A stretch of DNA of 64,000 nt from Hydractinia symbiolongicarpus (lineage: Eukaryota; Cnidaria; Hydrozoa; Anthoathecata; Hydractiniidae): assembly GCF_029227915.1 (NCBI RefSeq), contig NC_079879.1, positions 22,956,501-23,020,500 of the forward strand, read 5' to 3'. This document shows, in pieces, positions 3,503-44,273 of this stretch. Both the position numbers and the translations under genes were made by a program. Numbering within the stretch: position 1 is the first letter of the stretch; the number at the start of each line of letters is the position of its first letter. Below the pieces are notes generated by a model, which did no database searches, had not been told where the DNA came from, and saw only the letters and a program-made list of their open reading frames with translations.

Positions 3503-6500
3503 ATGAAATTGAAAAAGAAGTGTTTGAAAACGGGGATGAAAATCAAATTACAAATTTTTTACACAATGATCACACTAACGATAGTTATGTGTCCTCATGG
3601 TGTTCTGAAATTTGCGAACAAAGTCATAACAACTCTGAGCCAGTGTTTTACAAGTTCCAATTCTATTCCCTGCGAGTTAAACGCTCATACGAGATTAAAT
3701 AACTTGTGCATTAAAAACCTTCATAGAGTAGCTATTGGGCATATAAATATCAACTCAATAAGAAACAAATTTGAGATGCTTTCTGCGACTGTAGATGGTA
3801 ATGTTGACATTTTGATGGTCTCAGAGTCTGAAATCGACAACTCTTTTCCCACAGCACAATTTTTTATCAATGGCTATACCAAACCATACAGGCTAGACCG
3901 AGACTGTTTCGGTGGCGGTATTCTGCTGTTTGTACGGCAAGATATTCCATCCCGACCCATTACCTGTAAATTTCAAAACCATGCAGAATACTTATTAGTG
4001 GAAATAAATCTGCGGAAACAAAAGTGGCTCCTCTGTTGCGTTTACAACCCTCATAAACAAAATTTGAAAAAACATTTGCAATATATTGAAGAGGAACTTG
4101 CTAAACATTCTGCTACTTATGACAATCTTCTTGTGATCGGTGATTTCAATGCTTAACCAAGCGAAATTCCACTTTCTGATTTTGCAAAAATGTATGGTTT
4201 GTATAACCTTGTAAAAGAGCCTACTTGTTTTAAAAGCCAATGCAACCCAACTTGCATCGACTTTATCCTTACTAACAAATCATCAACACACTAATGTTGT
4301 GGAAACAGGCTTATCTGACTTCCACAAGATGACTGTGACTTTTATGAAAACTAAATTTAAAAAGGGTAAACCGAACATACAACAATATAGGGACTACAAA
4401 AAATTTGACCATGAAACTTTCCGGGGGGGACCTTTTTAAATCGTTAAATGAAACCGATTTCTTAGGTATTGATCTTGAAGCATCTTTGAACAAAGTCATG
4501 AACACTCTTAATATACATGCTCCAAAGTAAACGAAATATTTGAGAACCAACCAAGCACCTTTTATGAATAAAGAGTTAAATAAGGCAATAATGACTAGAT
4601 CTAGACTAAGAAATAAATACTTAAAAAACAAAGGCGATGAAAATGAAACTGCTTTTAAAAAGCAAAGAAATAAATGTGTCAAACTAGTACAAAAAAGTAA
4701 AGAAACCTACTATAACAATTTAACAATTTAGAGTTTAAAAGTGTTACAGATAATAAAAAATTCTGGAACACAGTTAAACCTTGCTTTACTGAGAAAGTCA
4801 AAAACAAAGAGCTGATAACATTAGTTGAAAATGGAAAAACTATCACTGATGACCTTGAAATAGCATCGATTTTCAATGATTATTTTTGCAACCTTGTTCC
4901 CAATCTTAGAATCAAGCTAAATGAAAATCCACAAAATGATAATATTTTTAATGATAAATCTATTGAGACCTCGTTATCGAAATTTGCTAATCATCCAAGT
5001 GTTGTCAAAATCAAACAGTTTTATGGCGAGTCTGGTAAAAAGCTTTCTTTTAGACGAGTCAGCCTATCTGATGTTACAAAAAAAATTAAAGATTTGGATA
5101 AAAATAAAACTACACAGCAGTCTGACATTCCAACGAAAATAATACAGGAAAATTCTGACATTTTTGGAAATGTTTTGTGCAATAGCATAAATTATAACTA
5201 CCAATCCAATTTTCCAAAAAGCCTTAAGAACGCAGACGTCATTCCAGTTTTCAAAAAGGAGGACCGTACGGACAAGTCAGTATACTGCCTAATATCTCTA
5301 AGATATTCGAAAAATGCTTATACGAACAAATTGAAGCTTTTTTTCAACCTATTTTTAACAGGCAGCAGTGTGGTTTTCGGAGAGGTTTTAGTACGCAGCA
5401 ATGCCTTATAGCAATGATCGAAAAATGTAAAAAAAGCCTAGATAATAAAGGATCTTACGCAGCGTTATTGACAGACTTGTCTAAAGCTTTTGACTGTATA
5501 AATCACGATTTACTTATTGCTAAATTGCACGCTTATGGGTTTGACAAGGATGCCTTGAGATTAATACATAGCTATTTAACTGGCCGGAAATTAAGAGTTA
5601 AAATAAACAACTCATTTAGTACGTTACTGGACATCTTATTTGGTGTGCCACAAGGGTCTATTTTAGGCCCACTACTCTTCAACGTTTTCCTGATAGATTT
5701 ATTTCTGATAACGATTGAAACTGATATAGCTAGCTACGCAGATGACAACACCCCATATACGTATGGGTCTGATAAAAATCAAGTTGTAGAAGACCTTGAA
5801 AAAACAGCAAAAAGAATGTTTATATGGTTTGCTGAAAACGGTATGAAAGCCAATGAAGCAAAGAGCCATCTTCTTTCTAGCTTACCACTTGATACAAAAG
5901 CTGTCGTTGGAGACACGTACATTGAAAACAGTGACCAACAGAAACTGTTAGGGATAAAAATTGATCGGAAATTAAAATTTGATTTGCATGTAACGGACTT
6001 ATGTCAAAAAACCAGTCAAAAACTACATGCGTTAGCGCGTGTTGCACATTACATGGATACTCAAGAAAGAAGAGTTATTATGAAGGCTTTTGTTACCTCT
6101 CAATTCAGTTACTGTCCTTTGATATGGATGTTCCACAATAGAACACTGAATAACAGAATTAATAATCTGCATGTAAGAGCACTTCGAATAATCTATTGTG
6201 ACCATACATCAATATTTAAGGAACTGTTACATAGAGATAAATCAAAAACGATACACGAAAAAAATCTTTAAACACTAGCTATAGAAATATATAAAGCTAA
6301 AAACAAACTCTCACCTGATATAATAAGTGATATTTTTCTGTTCCGTAGTAGCACTTATAATTTGAGAAGTGAAAGAGAACTTTGCTATCGCACAGCAAAA
6401 ACGTCTACTTATGGCACTGAAACTATCTCAAATTTCGCGCCAAAATTGTGGCAGATGATACCATCAAATATAAAAACATCTGAAACGTTACAAGAGTTTA

Positions 6501-6583
6501 AGTCAAAAATTAAGAAATGGAATCCAGAAAGTTGTCCTTGTAGGTTGTGCAAACCGTATATTAATGGATTAGGTTTTATTTGA
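3503..6583 (+). pseudogene. CR1/jockey-type LINE ORF2: endonuclease plus reverse transcriptase, many frame breaks
   Basis: The N-terminal part (3503-4156) is an APE-type endonuclease with the VSESEID block and a GDFNA motif, cut by TAA at 4154. Further frame changes or stops lie near 4290, 4430, 4527, 4731, 5290-5411 and 6269. The reverse transcriptase is best preserved at 5414-6271, with AFDCINHDLL, GVPQGSILGPLLF and the YADD catalytic motif. The C-terminal tail (6362-6583) ends with a Cys-rich stretch (CPCRLCK). Domain order and motifs fit the CR1/jockey superfamily; the clade is uncertain. The number of breaks shows an old, dead insertion. A 5' promoter region and a defined 3' tail could not be delimited. 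Confidence 0.8.
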
Positions 6584-7282: not shown

Positions 7283-7349
7283 CGTTGGATTTTGTTGATG
7301 TCAGCATATTTTCGTGTGATGGTTACATGATTTGTGGAACCGGGGAATT

Positions 7350-7460
7350 CCCTTGATAATGCGGATGACTCATTTGAGGGATGATATCGTGACGTCACAA
7401 AAAATTTCCTGCGCATTCTCGGAAAATGCGTGTTGCGTTCAAGCGCATTTTCGCGTTTTT
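7350..7460 (+). repeat. Dispersed repeat copy B
   Basis: Same-orientation copy of 880-985, sharing the opening CCCTTGATAATGCGG and the AAGCGCATTTTCGCG core. The second hairpin arm seen in copy A is missing. Confidence 0.65.
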
Positions 7461-8125
7461 AGCACGGGTGGTTCGAAGCGGAATCTAAGAGTTAGCGCAT
7501 GCGCGGGTTTTTAACGACATCCGTGGAGGAATAATGGCGGCCGGCATCAAACTACGTAGTCAAAACAAACCAAGAGCAAGTTTAAATCTATTGTTATCCT
7601 CCCATCTAATATTCCAATAGATCTAATTTAGCCGTAAACGAACATGTGATAAGTCAACGAAGAGGCTCAGCGAAACATTTTTGTTGTAGTGGAGCTAGGT
7701 ACGAGGAACAAGACTACTCAAGTAGATGAAAGAAAAAATCAAGATTTTTGCTTATTTGCGTTACGTTGCTAACGTCAAGGTAATTAACTTGTTATTCAGA
7801 GTTTTCTAGGGCTGTAGAAAAGTTATTTTACATCAAGGACACATGGCCCTAAGAGAAAAATACAACTTTGAAGTGCTTTCAGTTTTTTTTAATCAGAAAA
7901 TGACTTTTGAAGTAGGCATATTTTTCACAGTTTCACGATAACTATCAAATACGTATGAAAGCTTCAATATCGTTTAACTAAGCCAATGTGGCATTACTGT
8001 GTTATAAATTTGCTAGAAACTGGTTAACACAAGGTTGGTTAACATAAAATATTTATATATATACATGCTAGGTAGGCTACAAAATACAGTCACATCCACT
8101 TAACAGCTAGTAGAAAATTCTGTCA
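7461..8125. other. Gene-free spacer downstream of the RAG1-like gene
   Basis: No coding potential seen. It contains one arm (7874-7889) of an inverted repeat whose partner lies at 11613-11628, on the far side of the RAG1-like gene. Confidence 0.45.
7874..7889 (+). repeat. Candidate left inverted repeat of the RAG1-like unit
   Basis: TGCTTTCAGTTTTTTT is present here and as its exact reverse complement at 11613-11628. The two sites flank the recombinase gene by about 240 bp and 200 bp. The T-tract weakens the statistics and no target-site duplication is evident, so this is only a candidate terminus. Confidence 0.35.
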
Positions 8126-11100
8126 CTACTCTTCCTCGCCTTTTGTAAATTTACGCTTTTTAGCTGCTGGCTTCAAGTCTTGAGCTTCTGGATTTGTTGT
8201 CAAAAGGTGCTGTTTCATAATGTATTTGAGCCTGTCAACTGGGTTTTTGATGTTTGAATAATTTATTCTCATACGATGCAAATCGTGGTGAATAGATTCT
8301 CCACCTTGTTCACCATAAAAACCTAAGCCCGTTCTCCACTTGTTTACAAAATCCAATACATGGTCTTCTAGTATGTGCAGCTTTGGACTGATGTATATTG
8401 AAGGCCAATTAACTCTTAAATAACACATGAACTGATTGATAGATGTCTCTAAAAGTTGGTTAAACAAATTTTATAAATTGACTTTTCTACTTTTAAGCAT
8501 TTCATAAAAATCAAACTTGCATATTTTACCTAAATTTGATAACATTTCTTGGGTCATAATACATGAAGAATTGAATATTGAGTGACACGAACCATACAGC
8601 TTGAACAGTTGTTCAAACTTCTTGCATGTTTCTTGACACTCCAGATATAAAACTTGATCATCACATTGATTCTGTACAATTTCAGGAATACGATCACATA
8701 AATACTTTATGTTGCCATCCTATAATATTGTCTACTGTTTGTTGTAAACCAATTTGTGAAATTATACTTATGCATAATACAATTTCATATTTTTCGTTTA
8801 CTTTATCTTGTTTCAATACAAATTGTATAGCATTGTATTGAAACAAGATAAAGTAAACGAAAATTTTTATAAATTGCAAAAATAAATCTAACCTTGAGCA
8901 TTTTATGACAATGGTTGCCAATAAAGCTTTTTCCGTGGTACGCCTGCCTCTCAACACCAAGCTCCTGCAGTGTATCGTCTAGGGATGATACGCAAGGACC
9001 AGATCCAATTTCCAATTGGTACTTTTCTTTGAATGCTTTTATGCTTCTATGTTTCTCCTTCAGTTCAAATTCTAAGTTATCCAACTCTGGTTTGTAGTTT
9101 TTTTCAAACTCATCCTTGGTAATTTGTTTAGATATAACCATCCAGTTCATATGTTCCTGCTGGTTATCATACTCGTCCTCCAATTCTTTTGACTCATTTT
9201 GTAAATTGCTAAATATATACATATATATATACATATATATATAGATATGTTATAAAGAAATGCAGCCCAAGATATGATTGGAAGTAGTATTAATAATAAT
9301 AAAAATCTAGTAAGGTGTACATACATTAAAATTCTCATATTTGCCATAAACTCTGCAAATTTAATATTAATTTCACCATCAGTAGTTTGAGCATGAATTG
9401 TGGCAATTCTTAAATCAACTTCTTGACAGTAGCTTTCCAAGTTGTTGAACATTTTTAAATATATCCCAAGTGTTAGGTGGAGCCCTGGTATAGCCACCTA
9501 TATAAAAAGTAATAAAAAATAGGTTTGCTGAATTTTCATAACATTGCACGAAGTACATTATACTTACTTGTTCTAGGGGGATGTTAAAGAAGCAATCATG
9601 TATCACATTTTGATAGTGTTTGGCGTTTTTCACTAACGATCCATTGTCACGAAATCGCTGCAGGTTTGTGTTCAAACTGTCCAAGCTACGTTTTGGAAAA
9701 GATCCACGAATAAATTTTGGGATGCAAAGTTGGTCAGTCTTTATGCTGCACCAGAGACAACAGTGACGGCCTGTAAAATTTAAAACACTAAGGTAATTTT
9801 ATAGATAGATTTTATTTTATATAAGACACATTGTATTATTGATATATAATATACACATAATTTTTTTAAGGAATCTGAAGTGATATGTGCCCAAAGAAGG
9901 AACTTTTGAAGCTATTTTTGTTTTTCCTTAATGTGAAATTTGATATTTATTTTAATTTAATAAAACATGTCATTACCATTTGCCCCACTAATTCCATACA
10001 TAGCACATAAATACTCGTAATCTCCATACATAAAGAGACGGATCTTCAAATTATTCCACTTCTGTTTTTGTAGAATCCTAATTTGTGGTTTAAATCTTTC
10101 TAAGCAGATTCTTAAATTTGTCACGGAATCCTTTGCCTCAAATATGCTGAAGATGGTCGTATTTTCTTTGCGATTAGGGTTTCTAATATTTGCCACTTGA
10201 TAGCTCATTTTGAAACTGTTATCACCATGGTCACCACCAATTTTAACATGTATTTCATCATCCGGTATAAATGAGTGATGAACTAATTGATTATTTTTAC
10301 TCAGTTCTGTTAACCGGTTTAATATATGACCTACAACATTGTAAAGGTATACCCAAGGCTTGGGATCTACAACAAGCTGCTTATTACTACTACTAAATTT
10401 TCGAGTTAGAGGAGCTAGCTCAGCAACAAGCCCTTTCCCTATCCACTTGTCTGCAACCTGTCTTGTTGTTTTTTCAGATGCAAGTTTGATGTCAAAAGTG
10501 GCAAGCCATCGGGAAATATTTCGCATAAGGTTCCATGGCAAATTCAAGGTGGCTTTCATGGCGGCAGCAGTCTCAGCTGGAATGGAGACATGATGGATTT
10601 CTGCGATTATTTGTTTTCGCTGCTCCTTGTCACATTTTTTCATGATCGCAGCTGTTTGTTTCACAAATGCATCATTTGAATTTCCTGAAATCATGTTGAT
10701 TATATTTTTAGCTGTTTTGCTCCGATCAGATAAGCTTCTTTTACTACTTTCATTTGATAACTTTCTTGGCATGCTGATCGGTGTAACCGTTATTGGCTAA
10801 AATAAAGAAATGTTTTTTATTTTTAGTCTTTGTTAGATATATAATATATATATATATAGTAGAAATATGAATAATTTTCAGGTAAATGCAGAAAAATATG
10901 TATATTCTAAATGTTTATTTATATACCTGTGGTCCTTTTGTAGCAAATTGAATTGTTTGATTCGGTAGTTTTGACTGTTTAATTTTGATACCAACCAAAT
11001 GTGTCATGCATTTTTCAATAATTGTCGGTACAGGCTTAGACGGACTTAGCTTTAAAATGTCGTTGGGTGTCATCAATTCTGGCTCAATGGTTTTTTTCGG

Positions 11101-11412
11101 CCTTCCACCTTTTTTAGATTTTATAGGCCGTCCCCCTTTAGATTTAATTTTCGAGAAATTTGATGCACTGCCTTCTTTCCATCTTACTGGGCATTTTGAT
11201 GTTTTTGTGCCCCGCAAATTACAATTTTGCATTGTGCAGTAACATTTATTACAAAATTTTGGTGGATGTATTTTGTTTACATCTTGCTCAAAGTCCTCCT
11301 GAAATGCTGACTGAAGGCCAGAAAGGTTTTCCTTTACAAGATAGGAAACTCTTCCATTCAAAATATTTCCACATATGCGACAAAGTTTGGTTAGATCTGT
11401 ATGTTCTGCCAT
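8126..11412 (-). CDS. RAG1/Transib-like recombinase (transposase) with RAG1-type N-terminal zinc region, 7 exons
   Basis: Exons on the minus strand: 10927-11412, 9977-10796, 9568-9770, 9325-9497, 8893-9208, 8530-8719, 8126-8448. All junctions are GT-AG and the sum is 837 codons with no internal stop (836 aa). Residues 11-57 carry CRICG and then IHPPKFCNKC, closely resembling the N-terminal region of vertebrate RAG1. A Lys-rich GGRP motif follows. The core has the RAG1/Transib order: first Asp in GGDHGDNS (351/354), second Asp in YGDYEYLCAMYG (421), zinc pair CLWC (440/443), zinc His pair HILEDH (754/759) and the final Glu in GEQGGES (776 or 780). Known members of the family cut and join DNA as DDE recombinases, in transposition or V(D)J recombination. 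Host gene or live transposon cannot be decided here. A CACTA/Chapaev-type relative is the main alternative. Confidence 0.72.
8791..8863. repeat. Perfect 31 bp hairpin in intron 5 of the RAG1-like gene
   Basis: Arms 8791-8821 and 8833-8863 are exact reverse complements over 31 bases, with an 11 nt loop. Perfect pairing implies a recent origin. It lies in the 173 bp intron between exons 5 and 6. Confidence 0.9.
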
Positions 11413-11612
11413 TCTATAGCTATAATTATTCTAAAAAATAATATTATGTAACCAGTTTAATCGTTGCCTTTCCAATTATATTTTTTAACTTAGTCAAAAG
11501 CTTTTTGCAAACATAAAGTTTCACATTTCATGACCATAAGCTTTTTTTCCTGTCTGTGCCACCATTTTAAAAATTTGAATTTTGTTCAACTTTGATGACA
11601 AATATTTTTCAG

Positions 11613-11628
11613 AAAAAAACTGAAAGCA
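11613..11628 (-). repeat. Candidate right inverted repeat of the RAG1-like unit
   Basis: Exact reverse complement of 7874-7889 (see that entry). It lies 201 bp upstream of the start codon of the recombinase gene. Confidence 0.35.
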
Positions 11629-11659
11629 GTATGGAACTTTAAAAAATAGAAAGTATAAT

Positions 11660-14427
11660 CCTTGGGCTTTCGTAACATATAAGTTTGATTAGGTGAAAAA
11701 CTCTATATAACGTTATAGCCGACCTGTTAGCTAGGTCACTTTTTGACTCGACATTTACCGTCTCGTCTTATTTACGTTTGTTGCGCTTGGAAACGACAAC
11801 AAAATTGTTTTTTGATTTTTTCCACAGCATCTGAAGACCTTAGATGCTAGATAAATAGATTTACATAAGGCCACGCGAGAGTAAAATTTCTGTTATCGAC
11901 ATTAGAAGTTGTGCCTTTATCAGCAACTTTGTTACAAAATTTTGGAAGCTCGCCCCAGACTCCCGGCAAATGCGCTTAAATTCCATTGTACGGCCGTTTG
12001 AATCACCCGTGTTAGGTGAAAATGCGCTTGAATGCATTGTTTGTCTTCTTGATAACAAAATAAGGGAAGTTAATCTATCTACAGGAGCCTAGAATATGAC
12101 ATTCCATACTTCCCACAATCACCGAGTAAAAAAATTCGCCAAATATATATGTGTTGTAGTGCGGTTAGAAAAATGTGAGTTTCTATATCCAAAATAAACA
12201 TTACTAGAGGAAGTTTGAAAACATTATTTCTTCAAAAAAGGATAAAAAAGAATTTAACGAGATTTTTATCAGTGAAAGGATGTTGGAAGAAGAGCTATGG
12301 AGTCTATTAGCAGAAGTCATCCACGGTCGTTCAAAACCGCGATTTTAAGGAAATAAAGTGTGCGCATGCGCCAAAAAATTTTTTTAAAAAAGCGCCTACG
12401 GCATAAGATTATGACGTCATCGATATTGACCTCACTCTCTATTATCTTGTTTTAGTTGCCCAATAAAAGAAAATTTAACATTTTTTTCTTTTAAAACTAA
12501 AGAAGGATGACCATAGACTACTATTTCCCCTTTGGTTGCAACCCGGGGCAGCCTAAACAGACGGCAAGGTCCACAAAAGCCCGGATGGCTAGTTCACAAT
12601 TTACCAGTACAGGAGCACTCTTGTACAACATTCTGACGCAAGGTTTTGCCTAAAAATTACTTTTCCTGTTTGTATGTATCCCTTATCGAGCGTTCTATCG
12701 TATTAGGTAGTAGCTGCCACTTTTTTTACTACTAAAATTTTGAGCTTTTCTACACCATACATTTCACTTTCGTTTTCACAAAAAAATGGTTGACAACTAT
12801 TAGAAATGTAAATTATTATACTTCTAAAATTAAATTTATAAGGAAAAAAAATAATTCATCTGATCTGTAACCTTAGCTAGCTCTAAGGTTGGTCTTGATT
12901 AGTTTTCTAGAAGCCTGCTAAAACTAAACGTAAATGTGAGAAAGCTAGCTTCACTCAGACTCAGTGGACCCCAATGGAAATAATCCACTAACAATAGGTT
13001 TTTGTGATTTTCTGGGTTAGAAACATTTTAAATGTTTATCATTATTGTTGTTGTTGTTAGACTAGCAACTGATTGCAAATGAAAAAAATTGTACAGTTAT
13101 ATATGTGTTAAACGAAAGCACACACATTTTTAGACATTTAAGCCTAGACCATTCCTTAATCGTAAGATTTTTCACGACGAAAGTCAATCTGAATTATATA
13201 AAAATAGTTTACAAATTAGGCTATTACAAGTATTTTTTATTTCAATTCATAATCTGTATTTAACGAATATATTCTTATTTCAAACGCATCCAACAAAAAG
13301 TGGTAATCGAGCAAATCCGCAAGCTCCTCTGTTTCATCATTGTTCCATCTTTTTTTTAACCGCTTCTGTCAACAAATCTTCACATGCAAATCACGTTTGA
13401 ATGACGCTTGAAATTGTGAATTGTTGGGTCAAAATTACTTCAATGAAATCGTGCCAACATGTTTTGTATCATAGAACAATTTGGGACTGGTGCCCTAAAA
13501 TGTGAACAAACAGAAAGTACAATATAAGCTACCAGAATCACGTGTGCAATGTGTGGCAATTGTTTTCAATCTTTTATAATTCAATAATTTAACAGACCAG
13601 CCGTCACATTCAATGGACCCCGAGTACAAACCTCGTACAGCCCACTTCCCGAAAAAAGAAAAGTTTCTTTTTCAAGTCCCCATTATAAAATGTATTTTTT
13701 TGTAAGAAAAAGTTTCATAATTCCCAACTTCTTACTAAATGTCCTCCTTTTCGATTTCTTAATGTTGGCTTGGAAGGTCTTCTACCTAACAGGAGTCTTT
13801 CCCTTTAAAGTCTATGGAATATACGTTCGATACGCAGCCAATTATTAACGCACTATTTACACCAGCGTTTTTTCCTAGTTGTTTATATTTTTTTTAAATG
13901 ACTGATTGGTTCCAGTGTTTACCACAACCGCAGGCTAGGTTATTTTTGGTTTGGAAAACAATGATTAAGCATTATTATCTTTTAAAAAAACCTGAGGCTC
14001 TCATAAAAAAGCATGTAAAATGATAGCAAAGTGTGCATAAAAATGTACAGACATGTGAGTTAATGTTTAACATATTCCTGTGAAATCCCTGACTTTTTTC
14101 TGATGAAACTATTTTTTTTGGCGAGATAAACATAAATTTTTCATGATTTATCAGACACCACAAACTCGGCATAAGCCTCAATTATATAAGTCAAAAACTT
14201 TTTCCAGGGTACGAACAGATATGCTGTCCAAATAAATGCACAGGAGCATCTCTGGTTTAGTGTTACTTGTTGTTTTGTTAATTATATACATATTAGAGAA
14301 AAATATCGATTTCTTTTTGTATGAGGTTTTTCATTAACAAACAAACCTTCACTGCGAAAAATTATTTTTAGCAGAACTATTATTAAACCCCTAACTAACC
14401 CCTAACCCCTTTTGGGGAACTGTGAAA
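11660..14427. other. Gene-free region with NRF1-like palindrome
   Basis: No coding potential found. The palindrome TGCGCATGCGCC at 12361-12372 fits the NRF1-type consensus. It is part of a 19 bp sequence (12355-12373) whose exact reverse complement lies at 15718-15736. Confidence 0.4.
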
Positions 14428-17134: not shown

Positions 17135-18381
17135 CAGTACTGTGAAAAGGTTTGTTAGCATCGTGGTTCTTGTTTATTTCATGTTACGCACGAACCACAA
17201 TGGCCCACGATGCGTATTTTTTTAACAATCATGGACCTCACGATCATGTTTCTTGGACTACACAAACAAAAATTAAATATTACATGGCGTCTACGATAGA
17301 TAACTTCTATTGTAAAACAACAAAGACCGTATTAGTTTATCAATTAAATCAAAAACCGATGGCAAAAGAATAAATTAAAACTTGTTGTTTTAATTCGTTG
17401 TCATAGCTAGCATAGATTTTAATCGTTCGTGAATCAAAATGCGATGTAAAAAACATTTCTATCGCTGCTTTTCGTCTATAAACTTTTAAAATGCGATCTT
17501 AAAAACATTTCTATCGCCACTTTTCGTTTATGAACTTTTTAAAATCCAATCTAAAAAAACATTTCTATCGCCGCTATTTGTTTTTAAACTTTTAAAATGC
17601 GATCTAAGAAAACATTTCTATCGCCGCTTTTCGTTTATAAACTTTAAAATGCGATCTAAAAAGACATTTCTATCGCCGCTTTTCGTTTATAAACTTTAAA
17701 ATGCGATCTCAAAAAACATTTCTATCGCCGCTTTTCGTTTTTAAACTTTTAAAATGCGATCTAAGAAAAATTTCTATTGTCTGTTTTCGCTTGAAAACTT
17801 TTAAAATGCGATCTAAAAGAGCATTTCTATCGCCGCTTTTGGTTTATGAACTTTCAAAATGCGATCTCAAAAAACATTTCTATCGCCGCTTTTCGTTTTT
17901 AAACTTTTAAAATGCGATCTAAGAAAAATTTTTATTGTCTGTTTTCGCATATAAACTTTTAAAATGCGATCTAAAAGAGCATTTCTATCACTGCTATTCG
18001 TCTATAAACTTTTAAAATGTGATCTCAAAAAACATTTAAGTTTAACTTTTCTAGACAAATCACATTTCGTAAAAATACGATCGCGTCCATGACAAAAAAG
18101 TATACACCAAGCAAAAACTACAAATATGCTTTTTTAACTTGATAAAACCTGAAATAAACAAATTAACTTTAATGAAAGACTTTTTTGAAAAGAAAAAATT
18201 ATACTGGCTAATAAAAATTGTGGAGCTACACGATCCTTCGTAGAGATAATAATATTAGCGTGGTGACCACGATAGAATGTTTGAATGTTTGTTGTACATA
18301 AAGACCCCGATTTTATCGTGGTTTGTGTGTACCACGCTCGTTACACGAACATGATGTTAACAAACCTTTTCACACTACTGT
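17135..18381. mobile_element. TA-flanked MITE (Tc1/mariner-type end structure) carrying a minisatellite
   Basis: The left end begins CAGTACTGTGAAAAGG and the right end is the reverse complement of CAGTAGTGTGAAAAGG; about 23 bases match with one mismatch. TA dinucleotides sit directly outside both ends (17133-17134 and 18382-18383). No transposase is present, and much of the interior is the 53 bp minisatellite listed separately. Confidence 0.75.
17441..18045 (+). repeat. 12-copy 52-53 bp minisatellite
   Basis: GCGATCT-type unit starts occur at 17441, 17493, 17546, 17599, 17651, 17703, 17756, 17808, 17861, 17914, 17966 and 18019. The unit core is ACATTTCTATCGCCGC followed by TTTTCG and AAACTTTTAAAAT. 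The three-unit block 17703-17860 is repeated almost exactly as 17861-18018, giving a 158 bp higher-order period. Confidence 0.92.
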
Positions 18382-40848: not shown

Positions 40849-41875
40849 ATTGAAAGAACAGTATGCGAGAGTACAGATTGTTGTAATTTATTCAATATAG
40901 TAACATGTCATGACGATGCTTTTTTTAGAAAAGTTAAGAATTTTCTTTGAAAAAAAGGACTTTTCTTATATCCGGATATAAGAATCTTGGACGAGGAAAC
41001 AAGCTGGATCGTATTTACTTGAGGAGTGTGAGAACAGACCTCTCCAAAATCTTCTTACTTTGATGTGCTGCGTTTTAACTAATTTTAACATTTTTATAAT
41101 AATAAGGATAAACTTGAAATCCAAACTTTTAAAACCCTTCAGGACCCCATTTAAATGTATGTATATACATACATACATTTAAGAGAACTATACACGCAAT
41201 GTAAGAAAAAAACAATATTACAAATTAAAAAATGTATAAAAATTTGCCTAGAGCTTAAAAACATCACTTCACTTGCTTCGTCCTTTAAATAATGACAGGA
41301 ATAGTCATAATGTAGAAATTAACCCAAAACTGGAAGAGACATTTTACGTGAAAAATGTATGCAAAAAGTCAAAATTGAAGTTATCTGTTCTATTTTTTTA
41401 TATTAATTATTCTAAACAGGTCTCATTTTTTAAGAGAGCTTAAAATTACATATAAGTCATTTTTGTTTTCACTTGCAATGTTTTTAAATATTTTAAAATG
41501 TGATCTTGAGATGAACTTAAAGTCGCTAAAATTTTAATTGAGGCTCTTAAGGCCGTTTCACATTACAGAAATATATTGAATCCAATATATTGGAAATTAT
41601 TGATAACTATTGAAAAATATTGCCTCAATTAATTGACATAATGTGAAACCAACTTTTGAGACACGTTCGAAAAAACATTACGCAATCGCTTTCAATACTT
41701 GTCAAGACTTTTTAATTCAAACACGGTTTGAATTAAAGAATATTGCAAGGGAAATTCTTTTGTTGTGAGAAGACTCAATTGTTCTCCGAACAATAGAAAA
41801 ATCGAATCAGCAAAGTATTCGAAATTTGTCTGTCTGAAATAAACAGTAAATGAAATATACGATCGAAGATAAAAG

Positions 41876-42833
41876 ATGGAGCAAAATAACATTTATTATT
41901 TTGAAAGTCAGCCACACGATTTTGCTACGAATGATCAAATACTATTTCCTCAAGCTACGACGCAACAGCAACATGCCGCACATGTCTTCACTCAGAGCTC
42001 ACCAAAACCAACCTCGTCAATCTTGAGCCAAGACACACAAATATTCGGTCAGAGCGTGCCACAGCAACTTCAACCTTCACTCAGCCCCGTATTACAAAAT
42101 CCAGAAGATGAAACTTCTGCGAAACCTCAGAAGCGAGGAAGAAAAGGCTTGAAACATGAGAAAGTTTGGAGTAGTGGTGAAACTGAACATTTGATAAATT
42201 TGTGGTCACAACACGAAGTTCTATACAAAGTTAGTTGCCCAGGATATATGGACAAAAACAAAAAACAACTGGCACTTGTAGCGATTGCAGCCGAGCTAAA
42301 TTGTAGCGAGAGTGAAGTACAAAAGAAGATGCACAGCATGAAGACTTATTATGGGACATTACGTCAGAATTATGAGGAATCGAAGAGGAAAAGTGGAAGC
42401 GGGAGAGCTGATTTGAAGAAGCCTAATTGGCCTTGGTATGCACTTATGGAATTTTTGAACGATAACTTGACTTCCAAGCGCACATATTCCAACATGAGAC
42501 AAAACGAGGCTTCATCGGAGATTGACGATTTAGAGTCTCACGAATCTTTTCTATGTGACCCCAAAATCGAAAAACAACCGGAGTAAGGGGCAAAGTTCGT
42601 GTCAACAAGATCTGCTGTACGTCAAACAATCTGCGCTTATGGACAAAGCTTTGAATGTTTTGTCTACTCCTAAGCCGAACGCACAGCCTTCTGAAAAGTC
42701 AGCTGACGATCTGTTTAGAATGATGGTGTCAAAGTCTATGTCTTCCATTCCCGAGAGCGAAGATAAGGAGGAATTGAAGATAGAAATCCAATCACTTATT
42801 TTACAAACAAAACGAAGAATACAGCTTTTCTAG
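41876..42833 (+). pseudogene. Harbinger MADF/BESS-type DNA-binding partner protein (one frame break)
   Basis: The first frame (41876-42586, 236 codons) has a Gln/Ser/Pro-rich N-terminus and then a MADF-like domain beginning VWSSGETEHLINLWSQHEVL and containing WYALMEFLND. A second frame (about 42590-42833) continues with DDLFRMMVSKSMSSIPESED, a BESS-like C-terminal motif. The two overlap out of frame, so there is one shift near 42560-42590, or a short unrecognised intron. In PIF/Harbinger elements this partner is known to bind DNA and help the nuclease reach the nucleus. It is divergent from the transposase gene only in strand; both face inward to the shared 3' region. Confidence 0.75.
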
Positions 42834-44273
42834 AACCCTTAGATTCGTCATTGTTTGTATTTGTTGTTTTGGTGAATAAAGTTCTATTGTCCGTATACTT
42901 GATTCCATTGCCAATGCACCTGACCTATACCTTGAAAATAATCACTGAAAGAATTTCGAATATTTTCTGCGCGTGTGCTAAAGTTTCTTGATTTTGTTCC
43001 TTCCATCGGGGACAGACTTGATAGGTTGTTAAAAATATTATCTTTGATTTCCGGTCCCTCCGCGTTTGTATACGTTTGCATAGACATAGTACACAGCATA
43101 TTATGTAGCGCACAAGTAGCTAACGTTACTTTTACAGCAGATTCGGGCAAAACATTTAATTTTGCAGTGAGGCAGCGAAACCGATTTACAAGTATTCCAA
43201 AAGCGTTTTCACTTGTTCTTCTTGCACGTGATAAACGATAGTTGAATATGCGCTTTGACTCAGTAAGTCCTTTCTGTGCGTAAGGTTTCATGCAATACTC
43301 AGTTAAGGGAAAAGCATCATCAGCAACTAGAACGTATGGCAAGAGTGGCTGGTCACACTCAGGGTTAAGGAAGGAATCATCAATTCCAGATATGTTTGGC
43401 AGTTTTCTCCTTTCTGGTAAATCTATGCTGTTTGTAGATAATCCTCTGAAAAATTCACACCGCCCGAAAACTCCACCATCGCTCAGACGTCCCTGGCAGC
43501 CGATATCGACAAAAATAAATCGACAACGCGCATCAATAATACCTAGTAAAACTAAACTGAAAAAACCTTTGTAGTTGTAGTATGTTGAACCGCTAAGCTT
43601 AGGATGGTACAGAGCAATATGTTTTCCATCCATTGCCCCAATGCAATTTGGAAATTGCCACATCGATTCGAATTCAGATGCAATTTCAAGCCAGTCGTCT
43701 TTGTTTTCGGGGAACTTGAGGAAATCATCTTTTAGTGTATCATATAATGCTTGACAAACCTGAGGAATAAATGTGGCAATGGTTGAAATACCAACAGAAT
43801 AGTGATGATGTAAGCTAGTAAAATTCTCCCCAGTAGCGAGAAAGCGCAAAGTTATTGTCAGCTTCAACTCCGGCTCCAAAGGTTTCCGTAAATGCGTTGT
43901 CTTCTTCGTTAATTTACTTCTGACTTTCTCAAGTAAAAGCTAAACAAAAGGATTGTTTTAGATCAAACTCAGAATTATTTCACATGAATATCAAGTTAAA
44001 AATTATATTCACCTCATTAGCCAAATTCATAAGCCGGAGGAATGGGCGCTAATGTTTTGCTTGTGGGGAAAAAAATCCATAATGGGGGGTTTGTTGGGCT
44101 TTAAAGTGAAGCAAATGGAGTTAAACACAAAACGTCCAGCTTTATATTATGTTATAACGTTATTATAAACATTTAGCTGCATAATCGTATAGTTTAACAC
44201 TTGGTGAAGACCTTTCCGAATATACTGGAAGGTGTCATTACAAACGTTAGCTAGCTAAAAACTACAACAAAGA

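Follow-up and report, generated by a model that had tools for sequence, protein, structure and literature searches.

What kind of gene joins a RAG1-type N-terminal zinc region to a complete DDE core in a cnidarian, and to what does it belong? The question is raised by a seven-exon gene on the minus strand (8126-11412) of a 64,000-nucleotide (nt) stretch of the Hydractinia symbiolongicarpus genome (contig NC_079879.1, 22,956,501 to 23,020,500; hereafter the window), which an earlier sequence-only reading had described as an intact RAG1-like gene. The gene is almost certainly the transposase of a full-length, autonomous-type Chapaev DNA transposon containing this one gene, and the element represents a young Chapaev family, a fresh member of an already known group. 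The assignment is based on the ends of the element, its target site duplication, the DDE, C(2)C, LH and H(4)H motifs of the protein and the DUF1280 domain. The sequence-only reading had recognised the gene and its motifs, but had overlooked where the element ends, its target duplication and the existence of further copies.

The element is 4,549 base pairs (bp) long (7463..12011, with the transposase gene on the minus strand) and is bordered by the target site duplication TTAG on the left (7459..7462) and on the right (12012..12015). Its terminal inverted repeats are CACGGGTGGTTCGAA at 7463..7477 and, at the other end (11997..12011), a sequence with the reverse complement CACGGGTGATTCAAA, the two matching at 13/15 positions. 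The element starts with CACGGGTGGTTC and ends with GAATCACCCGTG, giving CAC/GTG ends, and all 17 near-identical copies compared share the 5' start of CACGGGTGGTTCGAA over the first ten bases. The target of insertion was an older host repeat (7348..7462). Its 13 further matches in the genome, including one within the window, all end at or before the element boundary; another copy of it in the window, at 957-1016, provides a paralogous empty site. A genome search with the left flank breaks at 7462/7463, with host repeat on one side and transposon end on the other. Inside the element, only 663 and 599 bp remain to the two sides of the gene.

Two other candidate boundaries were rejected. The inverted pair 7434-7452/12018-12036 was considered as the terminal repeat, but genome copies show it to be a palindrome of the host repeat. 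The score of an alignment extended inward from this pair was reached by 0/500 shuffles, part of that score coming from the palindrome because the pair belongs to the host repeat; for the inward alignment from about 7480 alone, the score was reached by 3/500 shuffles. A left end at 7350 was likewise discarded, as genome copies place that stretch in the host repeat.

Copies were sought across 480.9 Mb of genome in 76 contigs, and the counts are lower bounds. The left-flank search gave 33 matches: 13 of the host repeat, the window locus and 19 element ends. Seventeen of these ends belong to copies near-identical with the window element, among which L035 has a gap of 15 bases within its first 657; the other two, on contig C4, belong to diverged relatives. 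The right-end search gave 25 matches, 19 of them near-identical with the window counted, including an extra copy (L055) that starts at element base 2354; the other six were the two C4 relatives and four more distant or partial matches (two on C10 and a single one on each of C8 and C2), from which C10 alone was retrieved (L056). There are therefore at least 19 near-identical copies, distributed over many chromosomes, and 18 of these, window included, have both ends. An exact 4-bp target duplication flanks 17 of the 18 two-ended copies, or 16/17 if counted independently, since L041 and L042 share flanks. Outside the window the duplicated sequences are tgaa, cacg, ggat, cttt, ggcc, tcgc, ctta, acct, agta, acga (twice), tccc, tagt, tacc, catt and tgga.

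Full length is retained by 13 of the 18 two-ended copies, and every one of these 13 keeps the whole reading frame. The remaining five carry internal deletions, two of them representing one insertion in duplicate, and in every such derivative the two retained parts share a 3-5-base overlap, which suggests short-homology joining. Substitutions relative to the majority sequence number 0-4 per copy and, with gaps excluded, 21 in total (13 noncoding, six protein-changing and two silent). The family has amplified recently, and is possibly still moving. The sequence-only reading, which had proposed that copies be counted, had also argued that so intact a gene was unlikely to be a decayed transposon; the gene is indeed intact, yet it is one copy of a young, multicopy transposon.

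The gene model itself was borne out as read, with seven exons, GT at the start and AG at the end of all six introns, and 837 codons without internal stop (2,511 nt, encoding 836 amino acids (aa) and a single terminal stop). Exon 1 (10927..11412; aa 1-162) encodes the RAG1-type/Chapa zinc domain at about aa 7-66, followed by GGRP motifs, and is RING-less. Exon 2 (9977..10796) encodes aa 163-435, supplies the opening base of codon 436 and contains DUF1280 together with the first and second catalytic Asp residues, D351 (10230-10232) and D421 (10020-10022). The C(2)C zinc ligands C440 and C443 lie in exon 3 (9568..9770) and the LH motif (H510) in exon 4 (9325..9497), while exon 5 (8893..9208) encodes a coiled-coil insertion, as judged from helices in the model of a homologue, and the GNH motif region. 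Exon 6 (8530..8719) is followed by exon 7 (8126..8448), with the H(4)H ligands H754 and H759, the probable catalytic Glu E780 (8297-8299) and the stop codon. The spliced protein is matched at E <= 1e-3 by 35 proteins, the top one 45% identical across 99% of the query, which excludes chance as the source of the 836-aa model. Across all six exon junctions it aligns with the relatives shown, the weakest junction being that after aa 560, within the variable coiled-coil stretch, and the same model yields a single terminal stop in 13/13 full-length copies. Intron 5 contains an inverted repeat (8791..8863; arms of 31 nt, 100% complementary, with an 11-nt loop) that is present in 14 of 16 other left-end loci examined and deleted in the remaining two.

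The ordered Asp, Asp, CxxC, HxxxxH and Glu features claimed for the core are present as D351, D421, C440/C443, H754/H759 and E776 and E780. Counted over those of 34 relatives that have a residue at the position, conservation is 34/34 for D351, 30/32 for D421, 32/32 for C440 and C443, 29/29 for H510, 24/25 for H754, 24/24 for H759 and 23/23 for E780. The choice of E780 as probable catalytic Glu comes from a single weak alignment (1.8 bits), in which the relatives' profile aligns the two His of H(4)H, and the second Glu within GEQGGE, with H937, H942 and E962 of RAG1. DUF1280 (PF06918) was identified by Pfam at 58 bits against a cut-off of 25 (1.3e-15). A structural model of the core of a homologue (P0001) retrieved only RAG1, BbRAGL or HzTransib among its PDB matches at E <= 1e-3 (40/40), so that a RAG1 fold is predicted for the core of the homologue and the fold link to RAG1 is well supported. 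A single-sequence search with the spliced protein reached RAG1 at E 0.56 only; the RAG1 link therefore rests on family profiles, exon 1 and the fold of the homologue. Among prokaryote genome contigs (36 pattern matches) and viral contigs (86), none was confirmed as a relative.

In the N-terminal region, the motifs CRICG (C11, C14) and IHPPKFCNKC (H49, C54, C57) are present as described in the sequence-only reading, and the relation to the RAG1 N-terminus that it had drawn from them is upheld by profiles. RAG1_imp_bd matches exon 1 alone at 25.4 bits (cut-off 23.3), falling below the cut-off, at 17.5 bits, in the whole-protein scan, and the family profile matches mouse RAG1 98-477 at 4.9e-29. 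With the structural matches of the homologue, the profile and structure checks thus support the label "RAG1-like" as to the N-terminus and the predicted core fold. The label does not hold in the sense of a RAGL- or Transib-type gene, given the 4-bp duplication, the lack of a RING and the lack of room for a RAG2-size gene.

Several observations weigh against the identification of the gene as the transposase of a full-length, autonomous-type Chapaev element. One of the 18 two-ended copies (L031) is without an exact 4-bp duplication (ttaa/taaa), and the full-length copy L036 is altered at residue 385, an Asp in 34/34 relatives; because L036 keeps its frame, an unbroken frame need not equate with a working enzyme. 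The PHxxxCxxC part of the Chapa motif, with its last CxxC, is lost from the window protein, and the model behind the predicted core fold is that of the 45%-identical homologue rather than of the spliced window protein. The ratio of nonsynonymous to synonymous substitution (dN/dS), a comparison suggested by the sequence-only reading, was calculated against relatives within the genome and came to 0.38 (456 codons) and 0.31 (446 codons) for the two diverged C4 relatives, values that are below 1 but rough, because the noncoding distance (0.07-0.08) is only half of the synonymous distance. Each C4 relative holds three stops in the compared codons; the two have a common flank and are probably one insertion. 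The third, decayed relative (L056) gave a dN/dS of 0.89 with ten stops and is uninformative.

The same values bear on whether the gene could be a host gene, domesticated from a Chapaev transposase and retained for a cellular function. A long, unbroken gene and a dN/dS below 1 against two diverged relatives would fit such a history, but dN/dS below 1 is also expected if the gene stayed active between transpositions. Domestication is highly improbable given the number of near-identical copies (at least 19, spread over many chromosomes), 18 of which have both terminal repeats and most a target duplication of their own. Slightly less improbable, though still very unlikely, is an element of the RAGL (RAG1L-RAG2L) or Transib kind, the immediate precursor type of RAG1 in vertebrates, with which the element would have in common the core fold seen in the homologue and the RAG1-type N-terminus. 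RAGL elements carry a RAG2L gene and 5-bp duplications (PMC7204232), the latter being given for Transib as well as RAGL (PMC8355894, PMC7204232), whereas the duplication here is 4 bp and the protein bears the DUF1280/Chapaev signature. Moreover, no plus-strand open reading frame (ORF) of at least 100 aa occurs within the 4,549 bp (longest 97 aa), a second gene as large as RAG2 would not fit beside this one, and no RAG2L partner (kelch/PHD) was seen within the element, plus-strand ORFs of up to 97 aa not having been searched individually and no kelch search having been made around the copies. The Pfam scan found no RING in the window protein, the CCGHC tail is absent from its sequence and the third zinc motif is missing. 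The RING is present in RAG1 and molluscan RAG1L and absent in some RAG1L, and so is not strictly defining (PMC7204232).

The least probable alternative is another DDE superfamily (hAT, CACTA, P or Mutator) with a chance or fused RAG1-like N-terminus. The C(2)C and H(3-4)H motifs are described as common to the CMCT group, including CACTA (PMC12730594), but the PDB matches of the homologue at E <= 1e-3 are to RAG1, BbRAGL and HzTransib only, and the 4-bp duplication and DUF1280 fit Chapaev. DUF1280 has been equated with Chapaev and grouped with RAG1 (PMC3985635), and the hallmarks set out in PMC4079192 are all found in the window element, which has CAC/GTG ends, a duplication within the 3- to 4-bp range, DDE, C(2)C, LH and H(4)H motifs, DUF1280 and a Chapa zinc domain. 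Its family is without the RING that some Chapaevs have and, within the 4-bp group, differs also by the loss of the last PHxxxCxxC from the Chapa motif. Chapaev3 also has DDE, C(2)C, LH and H(4)H motifs and CAC/GTG ends, but its duplication is a 3-bp TWA (PMC4079192), in contrast with the 4 bp of varied sequence here. Compared with RAG1/RAGL (ProtoRAG, BbRAGL), the window protein is without RING and CCGHC tail and has a coiled-coil insertion, and canonical Transib transposase (HzTransib), which makes 5-bp duplications, is described as having no domain beyond the core (PMC4411706).

As a Chapaev transposase, the protein would be expected to act like a DDE enzyme of RAG1/Transib type. Dimerisation and binding of the element ends may fall to the ZAD-like zinc domain at the N-terminus and the domains ahead of the core. 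Two metal ions would be coordinated by D351, D421 and E780 within an RNase H fold, and zinc in an inserted region by C440/C443 and H754/H759. Excision of the element would occur at the CAC/GTG ends (CACGGGTG ends), and its joining to target phosphates 4 bp apart would generate the 4-bp duplication; by analogy with RAG1/Transib, hairpins might form on the flanking DNA. We infer catalytic activity, dimerisation, hairpin formation and present-day mobility for this element.

The ZAD is a C2..C2 treble-clef dimerisation domain of arthropod C2H2 zinc-finger proteins. The predicted fold of the exon 1 zinc domain is ZAD-like, and the N-terminal zinc region common to Chapaev transposases and RAG1 has about an even chance of being a divergent ZAD, an idea that draws on fold, relatives and profile. 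A Foldseek search with the N-terminal model gave nothing at E <= 1e-3, the top match being a ZAD at E 0.69, and its 11 matches did not include the solved RAG1 N-terminus (21wb). A single ZAD sequence was compared with 30 of the 32 rows of the family, those with under 40 residues in the stretch being left aside, and zf-AD was not listed by Pfam for the window exon 1, where the filters drop most weak matches. No statement likening the RAG1-type N-terminal domain to a ZAD was found in the literature searched.

Across the genome, at least 77 matches to DUF1280 occur. In one group, 21 of them all score 47.0 bits and are joined by one further, similar match. Of three loci in this group that were compared, L064 and L065 are 99.98% and 99.8% identical to L063 over 5.6 kb, and each of the three has a 347-aa exon-1 frame. 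In L063 (G000:C5:8296900-8303400, which begins CACGGCTGTTTC), this exon (L063:4241-5281, minus strand) has the full Chapa motif and a RING (zf-C3HC4_2 5.2e-12, RAG1_imp_bd 2.5e-8), and alone matches RAG1 156-357 with a full-sequence E of 2.8e-14. The L063 group is a second young Chapaev family in the same genome, with a complete RAG1-type N-terminus including the RING and the last CxxC that the window protein lacks. Two further sequences were also noted. L062:3143-6235 (G000:C14:18466500-18474500) is an open frame of 1,030 aa; besides DUF1280 it has a PHD-finger-like insert (21.8 bits, cut-off 24), and its C-terminal end, CPCCGHCK, resembles the CCGHC tail named for invertebrate RAG1L; by eye, neither a Chapa domain nor a CxxC was seen in it. 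P0118 (708 aa; profile E 1.5e-15, 21% identity, zero Pfam matches) is a distant relative that by eye keeps GGDHGG, CxxC and LH, and is possibly a further branch.

The union of both RAG1 halves in one gene outside deuterostomes, which the sequence-only reading had taken to bear on how RAG1 was assembled, is already in print. Chapaev has been known since 2015 to join a RAG1-type N-terminus to a RAG1-fold core, its Chapa domain corresponding to the RAG1 N-terminus and being followed by a RING in two subgroups, and Transib, TransibSU, Chapaev and Chapaev3 are treated as one superfamily (PMC4411706); RAG1L genes are known from protostomes and cnidarians (PMC7204232). Aplysia N-RAG-TP, another RAG1-N-like mobile element, is described in the account of PMC8355894 as an N-terminal-like sequence only. 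Since Chapaev elements are listed for ACa (PMC4079192), given as Aplysia californica in PMC4411706, N-RAG-TP may represent exon 1 of a Chapaev element in Aplysia. No publication on Chapaev among the transposable elements of the Hydractinia genome was found in the literature searched, and the main text of the genome paper (PMC11067881) mentions neither Chapaev nor RAG1.

Elsewhere in the window, open frames resembling a long interspersed nuclear element (LINE)-type reverse transcriptase (5228-6583, plus strand), a Harbinger-type transposase (42884-43939, minus strand) and its Myb/SANT-like partner (41873-42586, plus strand) were labelled by reading the sequence only. Self-comparison revealed an imperfect tandem array with a period of about 52-53 bp at 17434-18037.

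The Chapaev enzyme is an already known distant cousin of the RAG1 of the immune system, here carried by a colonial marine animal in many almost identical, unbroken copies. The two recently amplified families show that presence of the RING and of the last zinc motif can differ within one genome. If the N-terminus is a ZAD, the RAG1 N-terminal region would hold a dimerisation module inherited from a Chapaev-like ancestor and would gain a testable dimerisation role, for which the young Hydractinia family offers a test case. More broadly, 13 full-length, near-identical copies and a RING-bearing sister family would allow direct biochemical tests of RAG1-related Chapaev enzymes, including their hairpin chemistry, end recognition and the role of the RAG1-type N-terminus.
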